64,000 nucleotides of DNA. It comes from Saprospiraceae bacterium (GTDB taxonomy: Bacteria; Bacteroidota; Bacteroidia; Chitinophagales; Saprospiraceae). Positions 3,909 to 9,703 of this stretch are shown piece by piece. A model generated the notes under the pieces. The model was given only the letters and a program-made list of their open reading frames with translations. It did no database searches and was not told the origin of the DNA. The stretch is taken from the NCBI GenBank assembly GCA_021604865.1, contig BQJU01000033.1, positions 1 to 64,000 of the forward strand, read 5' to 3'. Positions within the stretch are counted from its first letter, which is position 1. Every line of letters begins with the position of its first letter. The translations under genes and the position numbers were made by a program.

Positions 3909-4325
3909 TCAGTAACGATTTTGTTCTAAATAATCTTGTAAAATTAACACTGCAGCTATTTTATCTACCAACCCCTTTTCGCGACGCTTCTTTCTTTTTG
4001 CCCCACTTTGAAGAATGATGGCTTTGGCATCCACGGAAGTAAACCGCTCATCCCAGGTAACAACCTCTACTGCGGGATAAAGCTTTTTAAGTTTTCGAAC
4101 CAAACCGACCACCTGATGGTGCAATTGCGCCGGATTACCATCAGGATAAAAAGGTTCTCCTACTACAATCGTAGATACTTCTTCCATGCCGAGATAGTTT
4201 TCCAGAAAGGAAAATAATTCTCCTGTAGGAATGGTATCTAATCCATTCGCAATAATTTGCAAAGGATCGGTAACTGCAAGACCGGTGCGTTTGGTGCCGT
4301 AGTCTATAGATAAAACTCTTGCCAC
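3909..4325 (-). CDS. yqgF: Holliday junction resolvase-like / pre-16S rRNA nuclease YqgF (RuvX)
   Basis: Starting at the GTG at 4325-4323 gives 138 residues, the normal length of the family. The protein begins VARVLSIDYGTKRTGLAVTD, the RNase H-fold strand with catalytic Asp. The later WDERFTSVDA and the Asp in GLVDKIAAVLILQDYL complete the fold. In E. coli the enzyme trims the 5' end of 16S rRNA. An in-frame TTG at 4391 would add 22 residues, but those are encoded partly by a dispersed repeat and lie upstream of a TATCTTTG -7 element (4337-4330), so I reject them. Its stop is 3 nt from def. Confidence 0.9.
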   Translation of the reverse strand: MARVLSIDYGTKRTGLAVTDPLQIIANGLDTIPTGELFSFLENYLGMEEVSTIVVGEPFYPDGNPAQLHHQVVGLVRKLKKLYPAVEVVTWDERFTSVDAKAIILQSGAKRKKRREKGLVDKIAAVLILQDYLEQNRY

Positions 4326-4329
4326 GGCG

Positions 4330-4337
4330 CAAAGATA
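4330..4337 (-). promoter_or_regulatory. -7 element candidate for yqgF-def
   Basis: Minus-strand TATCTTTG matches TAnnTTTG exactly. If used, transcription would begin at or next to the GTG start codon, giving a leaderless or nearly leaderless message. Only a poor -33 (TTTT) lies upstream. Confidence 0.35.
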
Positions 4338-4370
4338 AGATTTTGTAATAAAAAGCGAATCAGACTTTTT

Positions 4371-4509
4371 TAGTTCATGTTTAGAGGCCAACTATATGCT
4401 TGCGCCGAAGCTTTCTCCGGCGGCCGTAGCCTTGGGCGAAGGACTCAGCGCCTTGCTTCGCCGTAGCTTCGCGAAGGCAGCGTAGGAGCATGGGTTGCAA
4501 AGGATCGTC
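4371..4509. repeat. Dispersed GC-rich repeat, family A, copy 1
   Basis: Starts with TAGTTCATGTTTAGAGGCC and continues through GAAGCTTTCTCCGG, a GGCGAAGGACTCAGCGCC block and CTTCGCCGTAGCTTCGCGAAG, ending near GGATCGTC. A reverse-complement copy of nearly the whole element lies at 29245-29400, with long near-identical stretches. Shorter relatives sharing CATGTTTGGAGG and GCTTTCTCC lie at 9882-9983, 12504-12557 and 46220-46396. It is GC-rich against an AT-rich genome. No coding potential is seen. Confidence 0.8.
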
Positions 4510-5015: not shown

Positions 5016-7817
5016 CTATTGTATGAGAAGCATTCTTCTGCTCAAACGCTGATCCTCCGTTTCGAGCAGATAGAAAAGTACGCCAGATTGAAGTTCCTCA
5101 GCCCGAATTGGAATTTCATTATATCCACGGGGAAAAACCTGATTAACTTCCTTCAGCAATCGCCCGTATTGATCATAGATACTTAACCTGGCCTTTGACA
5201 TGCTCGGCAGGCTAAATCCAATAATGGTTTCTTCCTTGAATGGATTGGGCCGGTTTTGAAGCAGGTCAAAGGTCGAATCTGTTGCGCCTGTTGCCATAAA
5301 ACTAATGGCTAGGGGCTTGATGTTTCCCTCCAATCCGTATGCTTCAGCCCGCGTAAGGCCGGAAGCCAATTGCATAATTTCACTTAAACGACTGTACCCG
5401 TTGCTTTCAATAATCAACCGGAAAACCAATCGGTCATTTTCCTGATATGGTAAGCCATCCAATTGATTCCAGCTACTGGTAATGATGCCATCTGACAACC
5501 TATTTGTTCCAAAGCTTTCTACTCCAGCCGCTCCGCCTTCAATCCCGACAATGTTTGCTACTTCTGGGTTCAACCTCAATGTAAATTGGAAACCGGAAGT
5601 TATCGGCAAATCCGTGCTATTGAAGTCTAAAACATAGGTAGTGCCTGGCTGCAATTCAATATCCTCTACCGTAAGTGCAAAGGTGGGTGCTCCATTTCTA
5701 AGGGCCAATTCTTCATCCTGCTGAGGGATAACATCCATATTGAGATCGCCAATTTTAATAGCCATGAAAGCCAGACTGTCCATATCTTCGGCTACTGCTT
5801 CCAGAGAAATATAATCGGGTATGGTATCAACAAATGGATTTTCCGCGTCAGAAAATTCGTAATCCATCGGTACAAAACGCCAACTAGTGTTGTGCATAAA
5901 GGAAGTATCCTGATGGGTAACCAACCGTCGCAATTGATTATAATCTTCCTGATCCACTACTCCTGAGCTGTCAATATCAGCAGCAATCAACAAATAGGGA
6001 CTGTCTAAGGTATCAATGTGCAAAATATGGCGCAGTAATTTTATCAAATCCTGGGTTGTCACGCCATTGCCATCATCTCCATCACGAACAGGTCGAAGCT
6101 GATAATCTTCTCCTCCAGGTAAATCCAAAAATTCATAGGTTCCTGCTTCAGTGGTTAACATCATCGTATCCATTCCACCCCTCAGCCATATTTCAGCATC
6201 GGCCATGGTGGTATCCGAAAGGGTATGTACATAACCAGATACATTGACTGGTTCAGGCGGTACCGTTTCGCAGAGTTCATCTACATTATGGAAAGAAATA
6301 AAGGTCAGGCAATAATCATAATTTGGGCCTCCAACTGATCCATCCGGCTGTACGGAATATGGATTGTCCGCACTATCCCACGCGTAGACCTCTACGACTA
6401 CCAAATCGCCATCATCACAGGTAAGTACCAGACCAGTCTGAGACATGTCGGGTGTTTCCCCCTGAATATTGATGGATAAATTTACGGGTCCTGAGCAATC
6501 CCCCAATCCGCTGGTCACAAAATCACTGGCCCAGATAGCTTTTGAGCCCAAATCTATATCTCCATCTCCGTCAGCATCCGTATTAGGTGGCAATGGCGAA
6601 TAGGCCGATGAAAGACTCACAATGCACACAGGGGAAGGAGCATGGCAATCTACCACCTCAAAAGGAATGGCTATTGAGTTGGAATTACCACAACCATCTT
6701 TCACATGAATATCAAAGCTATGCTGCCCAAGTGGGTAACTGCCCTGTATCAAATAATTGGGATAACTACCACTCAATACCGATCCTGCTATATTATTGTC
6801 TGGAATAAGCGGTACAGGTTCGTTAAAAGCAAAAAAGAAAACTTTCACCTCCACCTGATCAGAACATTCTTCTGTGACACTAAATGGAATATCTACGGCA
6901 CCAGGACATCCGACCAATTGATTGTTACTATGGCTACAGAATGGATCTGGAGCAGTATAGGTTATCAGCGGTTTAATATTATCTTTTACTTTGATGTGTT
7001 GAACGTATTTATAATAACCGCGATTACTAAAATAGGTATTTGAATGCCCTACCGAAACTGAACGCCAATAACCAATATTGCCGTCATGTCCACAAGAGGG
7101 GTTTATTTCTCCCGCACCTGGGTTGTAATTAAATGGGTTATAATCCCGGTCAATGTAAAGGGTACCGTTGGGTTTACGGTTGAGAATAACGTCTTCATCT
7201 CCTGGCAGGCCATCGCAGTCTTCATCACGGCTGATGACCATCGCAGGTGAAATGCCATCGTATTCACACCAATTGACAACGGTATAGGTCCGAAAAATCT
7301 TATAACACGCGCTACTACCGGTGTTAAAAACCATATCACTACTACCTACAGCCAATAAATCACACCCCTCTTCATCGTATTCTACACCATCGATATCGGG
7401 CAATTCACAAATACCCATGGCATCCATAGGAAACTTAATCTGGTAATCGTGGGTGCCTAAAACCCAAATTACTTGCTGGCAATAATAGGTGCCACCACCC
7501 CATCCACCTGAAGTGCCTTGAAAATTACGAATAATGGTGCCTACATCACAACTGTTAAGGTTGACTTCGGGCTCAAGCTCAGTCCAGTAATAGGACGGGC
7601 ATCCCCACCCTCCGCCTGGCGAACCAAATAAACTGGCCAGCTGATAAGTATTATTGGGGTTAAAATTCCAGGGTAGATCCGAGCACCAGATTTCCGTATC
7701 ATGAGGAATACTACAGCAGGGATCGTCTTGCTGGCTTCCCTCAGCAGATAAGCTAAGAGAAAAAAGTGTGAGTACAAAAATTAAAAGAGGTACAAAAAAG
7801 GTAAATCTTGTCTTCAT
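5016..7817 (-). CDS. Secreted modular protein with dockerin-like and cohesin-like parts and T9SS sorting domain
   Basis: About 933 residues from the ATG at 7817, chosen because a clear signal peptide (MKTRFTFFVPLLIFVLTLF...) follows; a longer frame begins at 7862. The N-terminal 500 residues are Cys- and Trp-rich beta-sandwich material of the kind used in adhesins. Next comes a carboxypeptidase-regulatory-like fold (GYVHTLSDTTMADAEIWLRG). Then a dockerin-like pair of calcium loops: DGDDGNGVTTQDLIKLLRHI, and DIDSSGVVDQEDYNQLRRLV 33 residues on. A cohesin-like segment follows (LQPGTTYVLDF ... GFQFTLRLNPEVANIVGIE). The last 80 residues are a type A T9SS sorting domain (LLQNRPNPFKEETIIGFSLP ... 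LSIYDQYGRLL). It is probably exported by the Por/Gld system and anchored at the surface. Its ligand is unknown. Confidence 0.85.
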   Translation of the reverse strand: MKTRFTFFVPLLIFVLTLFSLSLSAEGSQQDDPCCSIPHDTEIWCSDLPWNFNPNNTYQLASLFGSPGGGWGCPSYYWTELEPEVNLNSCDVGTIIRNFQGTSGGWGGGTYYCQQVIWVLGTHDYQIKFPMDAMGICELPDIDGVEYDEEGCDLLAVGSSDMVFNTGSSACYKIFRTYTVVNWCEYDGISPAMVISRDEDCDGLPGDEDVILNRKPNGTLYIDRDYNPFNYNPGAGEINPSCGHDGNIGYWRSVSVGHSNTYFSNRGYYKYVQHIKVKDNIKPLITYTAPDPFCSHSNNQLVGCPGAVDIPFSVTEECSDQVEVKVFFFAFNEPVPLIPDNNIAGSVLSGSYPNYLIQGSYPLGQHSFDIHVKDGCGNSNSIAIPFEVVDCHAPSPVCIVSLSSAYSPLPPNTDADGDGDIDLGSKAIWASDFVTSGLGDCSGPVNLSINIQGETPDMSQTGLVLTCDDGDLVVVEVYAWDSADNPYSVQPDGSVGGPNYDYCLTFISFHNVDELCETVPPEPVNVSGYVHTLSDTTMADAEIWLRGGMDTMMLTTEAGTYEFLDLPGGEDYQLRPVRDGDDGNGVTTQDLIKLLRHILHIDTLDSPYLLIAADIDSSGVVDQEDYNQLRRLVTHQDTSFMHNTSWRFVPMDYEFSDAENPFVDTIPDYISLEAVAEDMDSLAFMAIKIGDLNMDVIPQQDEELALRNGAPTFALTVEDIELQPGTTYVLDFNSTDLPITSGFQFTLRLNPEVANIVGIEGGAAGVESFGTNRLSDGIITSSWNQLDGLPYQENDRLVFRLIIESNGYSRLSEIMQLASGLTRAEAYGLEGNIKPLAISFMATGATDSTFDLLQNRPNPFKEETIIGFSLPSMSKARLSIYDQYGRLLKEVNQVFPRGYNEIPIRAEELQSGVLFYLLETEDQRLSRRMLLIQ

Positions 7818-8181
7818 AGGAGATGTATTAGTGATTGATCCATTTGGATAATTAACAACCAAATTCAGCAGACAAATGAAAATATCGTACGAATTATCAG
7901 GTGGGGGGATAAATAGGTATAGCCTACCTTTGTTCAGTTAGGATGGCCAGTTGTAACTAACCGGATATTGCACAAAAAAACAAAGTAGTGGATTGATTGT
8001 ATGTGTAGAAACAGAAATAGAAATCTCTGCACCTCCACAAATTTAAAATATCCAGAACGCAATACCAATTATTCAGGAAAGAATTTAGGAAATGGCAGGA
8101 TAAGTGTAAGGATACGGTAGTTATTACGACTGTAAAGTACCGTCTAAGTAGGAAATTAGGGGTCAGAAAATGTGTGGTTGC
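7818..8181. other. Long 5' region of the cargo gene, no gene seen
   Basis: AT-rich spacer between the ncRNA candidate terminator and the cargo gene. A TACCTTTG element occurs on the plus strand near 7925, but no plus-strand gene follows. The reading frames here are short or start with rare codons, and I do not support any. Confidence 0.4.
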
Positions 8182-8233
8182 AAAAAAAAAGTTGCCAGAC
8201 TCCGGAATAGTTACCCATTCCTTCCCTGACAAC
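8182..8233 (-). terminator. Strong Rho-independent terminator ending the RNA candidate
   Basis: Minus strand: GTTGTCAG pairs with CTGGCAAC (one G-U), an inner GGAAT/ATTCC helix encloses an 8-nt loop, and nine U residues follow (8190-8182). It lies well beyond the separate htrA terminator at 8521-8560, so it must end a different transcript. Confidence 0.8.
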
Positions 8234-8423
8234 CGTTCCCCCTTACTTATAGTCTTGATGCTTATTCTAGTAAGCAAATCTTGTCAGCTCTGTTGCCCAA
8301 TTAATTAATCAATTACAACCGCTTTATTCAAAACGCCTTTCTGGTAATGACACCCTAACAGGAGCGATTTGCCAGAAAGAAACATGATGTTATTGTTAGA
8401 AGCGGCTTTACCAATTTCAGACA
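8182..8423 (-). ncRNA. Candidate structured RNA with competing terminator helix
   Basis: About 240 nt on the minus strand, bounded by a promoter-like pair (8464-8430) and a strong terminator (8233-8182). It can form stacked helices: CCGCTT (8405-8400) with AAGCGG (8324-8319), CTTTCTGG (8379-8372) with CCAGAAAG (8344-8337), and TGCTTA (8276-8271) with TAAGCA (8264-8259). CTGACAA (8287-8281) can pair with TTGTCAG (8232-8226), which is also the 5' arm of the terminator, so two structures exclude each other. That is the layout of an attenuator or riboswitch leader, or of an independent RNA. I do not recognise it as tmRNA, RNase P RNA or SRP RNA. The gene downstream on this strand is the cargo gene at 7817. 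Confidence 0.5.
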
Positions 8424-8429
8424 ATTGAA

Positions 8430-8464
8430 CAAAAGTTATTCTTTTGACTTAAAATAATTACAAA
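8430..8464 (-). promoter_or_regulatory. Promoter candidate for the structured RNA
   Basis: Minus strand TTTG at 8464-8461, a 22-nt spacer, then TAACTTTTG at 8438-8430. The -7 box has one extra T relative to TAnnTTTG. It would start an RNA near 8423, just before the first helix. Confidence 0.4.
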
Positions 8465-8520
8465 GTCACAATTTTGGGTAGTTTTTTTTATTTTTTGCTT
8501 AGAAGTTGTATTCTGAAAAT

Positions 8521-8560
8521 AAAAACAGCCAATCAAAATTGCTCTTAATTGGCTGTTTTA
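8521..8560 (-). terminator. Terminator of htrA
   Basis: Minus strand AAAACAGCCAAT pairs with ATTGGCTGTTTT around a 14-nt loop, and the 3' arm runs into U residues. It lies about 20 nt after the htrA stop codon. Confidence 0.85.
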
Positions 8561-8581
8561 TAAAGACTCTTTATTTATTTA

Positions 8582-9703
8582 CTATTGGTCACCAGAAGGA
8601 ATGACACTCTCCAAGCTTTTCAAACGGATATTTTCTTTGCGAATTTTTCTTCCGGAGCGAATAAAGTCCACCGAAATGCTATCCCCAGGGCGAAACAAAG
8701 CAACTTGTTCCTGCAATTCCGGTACAGAGGGGGTCGTGATTCCATTGATCCCAATAATCACATCACCCACTTTCAGACCTGCATTATCGGCGCTGCTATT
8801 TTGACTCACTTTATTGATATATACGCCAGAGACAGCCGGCAAGTCCAGAGCATCAGCCAGTTCACCAGTAACATCTTCAATAATGACCCCTAGGACGGCA
8901 CGCCTAACTTCACCATATTCCCTCAAGTCAGCAATCACTTTCCGCACCAGATTGGAAGGAATAGCAAAAGAATAACCTTCATAACCACCTGACTCACTGA
9001 TTATTGCCGTATTAATTCCAATTAATTCACCATTGGTATTAACCAAAGCACCGCCACTATTTCCCGGGTTAACAACAGCATCGGTTTGAATAAAGGATTC
9101 AATAGAATAGGAAGAGCGAAGAATCCGGATATTCCTGGCTTTTGCACTAACAATTCCCGCTGTAACGGTAGAGGTCAGGTTAAAGGGATTACCTACTGCA
9201 AGCACCCATTCTCCAATATCTACCTGGTCGGAATTACCAAAGCTGATTGGACTCAGGCCCCTGGTATCAATTTGAATTACCGCCAAATCAGTACTGGGAT
9301 CTCTTCCTATAACTTTAGCATTCAGCTGCCGTTTATCAGGAAGGGCAACCTCCAATCGAGATCCGTCTTCTACGACGTGATTATTGGTCACAATGAAACC
9401 ATCAGAAGAAATGATGACGCCCGAACCACTCGCGACACGGTAGCCCGTAGCACTAAAAACAGTAATGTTGACCACAGAATTGGTCGCTTTTTTTGAAACT
9501 TCCCGAAAATCCGGCAACACGATTTCAGATTTATGCAAAGGCCGGGTATTTACCAGGGGCTGGTTGTCCTGTTTTACAAATTGCACCGGTAAATCTTCTT
9601 TGAAGGATTCAGGAGGAATAGGCTGATAATATTGAGTAAATAGATAAAAAGAGCATATTGTACTCAATAAACCAACCAAAATATTAGTTGCCAGATTTTT
9701 CAT
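8582..9703 (-). CDS. htrA: HtrA/DegP-type periplasmic serine protease
   Basis: A 373-residue trypsin-fold quality-control protease. An N-terminal membrane segment (about 7-24) anchors it facing the periplasm or acts as signal peptide. The catalytic triad is H109 (VTNNHVVED), D139 (STDLAVIQID) and S216 (NPGNSGGAL). One PDZ domain covers about 268-360 (YINKVSQNSSADNAGLKVGDVI). A single PDZ makes it DegS-like in layout, but DegS and DegQ-type roles cannot be told apart here. A terminator follows the gene. It stands alone, with repeat DNA upstream. Confidence 0.93.
   Translation of the reverse strand: MKNLATNILVGLLSTICSFYLFTQYYQPIPPESFKEDLPVQFVKQDNQPLVNTRPLHKSEIVLPDFREVSKKATNSVVNITVFSATGYRVASGSGVIISSDGFIVTNNHVVEDGSRLEVALPDKRQLNAKVIGRDPSTDLAVIQIDTRGLSPISFGNSDQVDIGEWVLAVGNPFNLTSTVTAGIVSAKARNIRILRSSYSIESFIQTDAVVNPGNSGGALVNTNGELIGINTAIISESGGYEGYSFAIPSNLVRKVIADLREYGEVRRAVLGVIIEDVTGELADALDLPAVSGVYINKVSQNSSADNAGLKVGDVIIGINGITTPSVPELQEQVALFRPGDSISVDFIRSGRKIRKENIRLKSLESVIPSGDQ

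Follow-up and report, generated by a model that had tools for sequence, protein, structure and literature searches.

Trans-acting small RNAs (sRNAs) that are encoded between bacterial genes and end in a terminator are a known kind of RNA. The element described here lies in a window of 64 kb, by which we mean the whole stretch of DNA that was analyzed, and it can be compared with these sRNAs and with other described systems. It shares with this kind an intergenic position, a single locus and a short conserved segment next to a terminator hairpin; sRNAs of Bacteroides are the subject of PMC7366714. It differs from trans-acting sRNAs in being known from sequence alone, with no target match and no enrichment of promoters upstream. 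The element also has the shape of an intrinsic (Rho-independent) terminator, namely a GC-containing hairpin that runs straight into a U-tract in 22 of the 29 distinct copies, termination itself being predicted. Unlike such terminators, it carries a near-invariant, purine-rich box of 15 nt that precedes the stem throughout the genera, and in five upstream tandem copies the box and stem are retained in the absence of a U-run. As do riboswitches and attenuators, it ends in a terminator, but it lacks a conserved alternative helix and a constant downstream gene, and appears to lack a sequence-conserved aptamer region. With 6S RNA (RF00013) and 6S-Flavo (RF01685), neither of which matches at the element, it has in common only a long hairpin upstream of the box, seen in one genome. 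We tentatively read the box, together with the terminator hairpin and U-tract, as the candidate 3' end of an sRNA that usually lies beside ruvX, htrA or both in a subset of the Saprospirales, and consider the chances of this reading to be slightly short of even.

The locus lies on the minus strand, between a protease gene and a gene for a large secreted-type protein. Its features, from upstream to downstream on that strand, are the following:

8582 to 9703, minus strand: HtrA/Do-type serine protease gene (htrA), the upstream neighbour, with Trypsin_2 and PDZ domains
8522 to 8559, minus strand: htrA terminator, from a pattern scan
8430 to 8464, minus strand: promoter-like TTTG-N22-TAACTTTTG of the first-pass annotation, one base off the consensus
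8290 to 8432, minus strand: possible hairpin region of 143 nt, long and interrupted (z -2.4; 4 of 150 shuffles as stable)
8281 to 8287, minus strand: CTGACAA, the proposed antiterminator strand, exact in the window only
8178 to 8252, minus strand: whole element, as matched by covariance models R1 (69.8 bits) and R2 (68.5 bits), the window copy being among the sequences used to build both
8234 to 8248, minus strand: AAGTAAGGGGGAACG, the near-invariant box, which adjoins the terminator stem on its 5' side
8225 to 8233, minus strand: 5' arm of the terminator stem, GTTGTCAGG, whose partner is 8199-8191
8200 to 8224, minus strand: variable inner part, with a 7-bp inner hairpin of 8221-8215 with 8210-8204 (fold of 8248-8178)
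8191 to 8199, minus strand: 3' arm of the terminator stem, TCTGGCAAC, from alignment, pairing and fold
8182 to 8190, minus strand: U-tract of nine U, read from the sequence
8038 to 8045, minus strand: TAAATTTG, which lies downstream of the element and is possibly the -7 box for the cargo gene; as a single box it could be chance
5016 to 7862, minus strand: gene for a large secreted-type protein with a C-terminal sorting domain (Por_Secre_tail, E 0.00044), the T9SS cargo gene of the first-pass annotation
3909 to 4391, minus strand: ruvX (yqgF), the commonest downstream neighbour in relatives (RuvX E 1.1e-33; synteny)

Two of these gene assignments should be considered with their scores: the htrA product matches degP_htrA_DO at 1e-107, which is below the cut-off of that model, and the Por_Secre_tail match of the cargo gene is below its gathering score, with no NCBIfam match. 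The cargo gene has its ATG at 7817 and an in-frame TTG further upstream at 7862, and the distance from the U-tract to the ATG is 365 nt, as had been annotated. The separate terminator that had been assigned to htrA was likewise recovered, with a stem at 8559-8522, so that htrA transcription should end before the unit to which the element belongs. The element's own terminator is missing from this simple pattern scan because the scan takes only loops of 3-8. When folded, the terminator segment reaches z -6.8, with none of 150 shuffles as stable, and the whole unit of 251 nt reaches z -2.8 (2 of 200 shuffles as stable). In the conserved element of about 70 nt (8252-8178, minus strand) the box takes the near-invariant form AAGUAAGGGGGAACG.

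The first-pass annotation had described a stand-alone structured RNA in which a terminator and an antiterminator helix exclude each other. The letters on which this rests are real: several stem-loops are followed by nine U at 8190-8182, and CTGACAA at 8287-8281 is complementary to TTGTCAG at 8232-8226. The switch reading nonetheless fails, and the part under selection is the adjacent terminator element. Searching about 190 nt upstream of the element, we found the exact CTGACAA complement in the window only (1 of 21 loci) and in none of the 20 relatives. Partners that allow G-U pairs were found in 8 of the 21 loci, which is near the 6.4 expected from shuffles; indeed, 42% of 200 shuffled window leaders offer a G-U-tolerant 7-mer partner for the terminator arm. 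Forcing the antiterminator fold in the window gives -63.8 kcal/mol as compared with -71.5 kcal/mol, i.e., a fold that is less stable by 7.7 kcal/mol. On these three grounds, absence from all 20 relatives, near-chance G-U partners and the energetic cost, we reject the switch as described. Of the stand-alone structured RNA, the strong terminator, its covariation and the lack of an Rfam family stood, while the mutually exclusive helices did not. A terminator/antiterminator pair found by eye can thus be chance while the terminator beside it is under selection.

A more general attenuator or riboswitch, with alternative helices that control the cargo gene or ruvX, is also very improbable. In its favour, CTGACAA is able to pair with the terminator arm in the window, and in 6 of the 20 relatives (L148, L151, L152, L154, L158 and L165) the 177 nt before the element fold more stably than shuffles, with a z of -2.5 or below, so that some leaders may be structured without being alike. 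The leaders of the other 14 relatives, however, do not fold as low as this, the leaders are unlike each other (flank identity of 26-35%), and the antiterminator strand is not conserved. Furthermore, the gene downstream, which is expected to be constant in a riboswitch or attenuator, is ruvX in 12 of the 21 loci and elsewhere another gene or one on the opposite strand (L154). The same variation of the next gene speaks against the suggestion that the cargo gene is under the control of the element.

That no known RNA family fits was confirmed, as Rfam at gathering score gives only a tRNA in the whole window and no match, to a housekeeping RNA or otherwise, at the element. When matches with E up to 10 were allowed in 7860-8585, none fell between 8182 and 8422. 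The sub-threshold matches overlap the A+T-rich 8423-8585, are all far below gathering scores and look like chance. These searches bear on a further explanation, namely that the whole unit of 250 nt, and with it the long upstream hairpin, represents a diverged form of a housekeeping RNA, for example 6S. The interrupted hairpin of about 143 nt (z -2.4) would suit such an RNA, and no 6S-type RNA is found above cut-off elsewhere in this genome. Against it, RF00013 has only two weak matches, on other contigs of the same genome, RF01685 has none, Rfam gives nothing over 8182-8422 even at E up to 10, and the hairpin sequence has no significant match in 60 relatives (the best being 21 nt, E 0.002). 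We regard a 6S-like identity as extremely improbable. No other copy of the 8290-8432 hairpin was found in its own genome, and the 177 nt upstream of the element fold at z -1.3 (17 of 150 shuffles as stable). In the window, the 8290-8432 hairpin on the minus strand sits where several relatives have a LytTR gene.

The promoter that had been proposed for this unit, TTTG at 8464-8461 followed after 22 nt by TAACTTTTG at 8438-8430 (minus strand), is present in the sequence. The -7 box consensus that we used is TAnnTTTG, as given in PMC9723704; the candidate in the window is TAnnnTTTG, which has one base too many. The pattern TTTG-N17-23-TAnnnTTTG has only 6 occurrences on both strands of the 64 kb.

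The extent of the conserved unit was determined from mean pairwise identity, taken over one copy per genus in 13 genera and anchored at the stem. In the 16 nt that precede the stem, identity is 0.83, and in the stem arm it is 0.92, as compared with 0.35 (-30 to -16), 0.26 (-45 to -30) and 0.29 (-60 to -45) further upstream. Conservation thus covers about the last 70 nt, and not the leader of 250 nt. A DNA search of 60 relatives returned exact 25-mers from two other genera, each of which falls in the box and 5' arm, and exact-pattern matches to the box occur in 7 other genomes of 100.

Our first alignment, of 11 copies from 9 genomes, presents a constant order: the AAGTAAGGGGGAACG box and GTTGTCAGG come first, the inner part that follows is variable, and after it stand CCTGGCAAC and, in most copies, a T-run. 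Each of the 99 cells in its 9-bp stem is a standard pair, and 3 of the 9 pairs are changed on both sides, a count that 7 of 500 shuffles also attain; covariation scores 0.374 as compared with 0.192 in shuffles, none of the 500 being as high. A larger alignment, with more loci, was fitted to the model and holds 35 matches in 29 distinct rows, where it should be noted that some rows are the same genomes present in two collections. There, pairing is kept in 99.6% of the 260 cells, and none of 500 shuffles comes up to the covariation score, while the count of pairs changed on both sides was reached by 129 of 500. The pairing of the stem is thus kept through compensatory changes, and the check proposed in the first-pass annotation, a covariance search in relatives, returned homologues and upheld the hairpin. 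The part between the arms varies among relatives in both sequence and length.

The box itself has variants: one genus has AAATAAAGGGG, others begin with TAGTAAG, and further copies lack one G or one A or read AT in place of AC, while genome G517 differs inside the box (GGGTATATC). Among the 29 distinct copies, the first nine bases of the tail contain a T-run of 6 or more in 22, a run of 4 in two and a run of 2-3 in the five upstream tandem copies (G014, G218, G143, L144 and G023); the remaining exceptions are the interrupted tails of L157 and L158. A pairing of AAGUAAG in the box with the U-tract, as an extra stem, is reached by 329 of 2000 arm-tail shuffles; as it is not above shuffles, this pairing is a mere observation in the copies without a U-run. 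RNAalifold instead pairs the G-run with the U's. In predicted folds of 21 rows, in which the 3' arm is misplaced in the window row and probably in L165, accessibility of the box was mixed and is not relied on here. A short protein that would start from the TTG after the box was considered and rejected, as inspection by eye revealed that the frame between the arms differs among copies and that one copy has an immediate stop.

Distribution was assessed with strict filters on samples of genomes. Model R1 gave 37 bits or more in 21 of 199 genomes of the same family, the next best being 29 bits, and in 295 genomes of the class only the genome of the window exceeded 31 bits. With R2, 24 of 398 family genomes, from 13 genera, scored 44 bits or more, each with one locus that is single or tandem. 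Four more family genomes, below E 5e-4, scored 30-32 bits and look like terminators without the full box. Among 248 genomes of the order, 8 reached 44 bits or more, all of the same family; three genomes of other families scored 29-35 bits (two were inspected and have no box), and no sampled genome of another family was above 35 bits. A pattern scan of a collection of named genomes yielded 16 stretches, 15 of which are titled Saprospiraceae, Saprospirales, Chitinophagales, Lewinella, Flavilitoribacter, Bacteroidia or Bacteroidetes, where Flavilitoribacter is placed in Lewinellaceae, Saprospirales, in NCBI taxonomy; viral contigs gave none. The 16th is a 5-kb contig, NZ_RCBY01000369.1 (L144), which is titled as the cyanobacterium Okeania hirsuta and presents the tandem arrangement of G014; it is probably contaminating Saprospirales DNA. 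On a poorly resolved RuvX tree of 40 rows, of which 15 have the element and 25 lack it, presence changes 7 times as compared with 12.3 in shuffles (none of 500 as low), and the element may have a single origin.

The neighbours of the element change while certain genes recur. At 12 of 21 loci ruvX follows on the same strand and starts no more than about 220 nt away, at 8 htrA precedes the element on its strand by at most 7 kb, and at 16 one or both of these genes are beside the element on its strand. As several contigs end close by, a missing ruvX or htrA neighbour says little. The next gene is a large T9SS-type gene in the window and in the group of G014, G218 and G143, where it lies about 280-365 bp from the element, a LytTR gene in G077, a rhodanese-like gene in G115 and G202 (by eye) and another gene in G030. 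As to the proposed check of whether the same RNA precedes other genes in relatives, the element is followed there by ruvX, a T9SS-type, LytTR or rhodanese-like gene, or, in G073, by a gene on the opposite strand. In that genome (L154) both flanks, manA upstream and the gene downstream, run opposite to the element, the 3' end of the opposite ORF overlaps it by about 50 nt, and its own strand is free of ATG ORFs of at least 60 codons from 600 nt upstream to 1.3 kb downstream. The element is thus a genomic unit independent of its neighbours. At six loci a small LytTR-domain gene lies upstream (Pfam on the G014 protein), and at L159 and L163 the upstream gene is divergent and starts about 130 nt away.

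The most serious alternative to an sRNA is a plain intrinsic terminator, set between upstream transcription and the next promoter, the box being inherited with a terminator that overlaps a promoter and having no function as RNA; we consider this possible but not probable. A hairpin with a T-run of 6 or more in 22 of the 29 distinct copies is what such a terminator would present. An exact TAnnTTTG occurs at or after the end of the element in 13 of 21 loci, with promoter scores at p <= 0.06 in 10 of the 21, and the next gene can therefore have its own promoter, while promoters upstream of the element are not enriched as compared with shuffles (1 of 21 at p <= 0.10; exact TAnnTTTG in 3 of 21). 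The U-tract of L155 and L156 seems also to supply a perfect -33 TTTG of the ruvX promoter, which continues, after about 20 nt, with TATCTTTG or TACCTTTG. In the window a single TAnnTTTG lies between the element and the cargo gene, but such boxes are common, with 83 on both strands of the window. A plain terminator, however, has no need for a 15-nt G-rich box that is near-invariant in 13 genera while the inner hairpin varies, and the element persists where both flanking genes are opposite (L154). As the upstream tandem copies keep the box without a U-run, the box is not kept for termination alone.

The proximity of downstream promoters also allows for an explanation at the level of DNA, in which the inverted repeat acts not as RNA but as a site, operator or architectural, that a protein reads ahead of the next promoter. 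At 8 of 21 loci the element ends 10-25 bp before an exact TAnnTTTG, two of these being before the rhodanese-like gene (G115 and G202). The spacing of the arms is free, however, which a dimer operator would not tolerate, and the arms change letters together. The T-run kept in 22 of 29 copies and the distance of the next gene in the window and the G014 group (about 280-365 bp) also argue against such a site, and we therefore regard it as unlikely.

To return to the sRNA, we infer its transcription, start site and action in trans, as well as the box as its contact site. From a start not far upstream, RNA polymerase would transcribe the box and come to a halt at the hairpin, and the released RNA would act through the box on a protein or on a partner RNA. 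This reading is supported because the box and stem are conserved, the stem covaries, each genome has a single locus, the element shares the strand of ruvX or htrA where these lie nearby, the neighbours change, the next gene can have its own promoter and the copies without a U-run keep the box. It is weakened because promoters are not enriched upstream, complements of the box are not in excess and the box is not strictly invariant, as well as because 129 of 500 shuffles reach the number of pairs changed on both sides in the larger alignment, an ORF on the other strand overlaps the element in G073 and accessibility of the box is mixed. For the complements, 15-mers with up to 2 mismatches in 13 genomes gave 134, including the element itself, as compared with 187 for the reversed control. 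A single-locus element with a near-invariant box and covariation nonetheless makes a testable candidate, which is present in a named isolate, Flavilitoribacter nigricans.

A more specific form of the sRNA reading would be an undescribed, lineage-specific sRNA family of the Saprospirales in which the G-rich box fused to the terminator is the contact site and the tandem copies without a U-run are extra binding modules. We hold this to be doubtful, at about the level of the plain terminator. If true, the extra modules would suggest that the RNA serves to titrate or carry a protein. A narrow literature search returned, among the matches listed, no work on a conserved small RNA of the Saprospirales, and for the 10-mer GGGGGAACGG all of the matches listed concern other subjects. 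Tandem copies lie about 240-270 nt apart in L149, L150, L152 and L144, and are also found in L161 at 6393-6533. The upstream copy, which has no U-run, carries CTTACTT or TTTACTT, which is complementary to AAGTAAG in its own box.

Partial look-alikes were also observed. A search for a degenerate element before ruvX at 24 loci, 22 from genomes without a strong model match together with the ruvX loci of G014 and G030, yielded only the ruvX leader of G014, at a weak 15.9 bits. This leader (L187, 1288-1363) holds a divergent relative of the stem, GTTGTCGG..TCGGCAA with a U-run, directly before ruvX; it has no G-box, and the boxed copies of G014 are located elsewhere. In G315, from another family of the class, a weak match of 30.5 bits (L103, 1501-1569, minus strand) has AAAGTAAAGGGGAAAGGTTACAGG before a terminator-like arm and could be chance or a distant relative. 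Finally, G605 contains a perfect palindrome (L171, 1501-1554) with GGAACGGTTGTCGGG between A- and T-runs, which has the form of a two-way terminator and shares part of the box, probably by chance.
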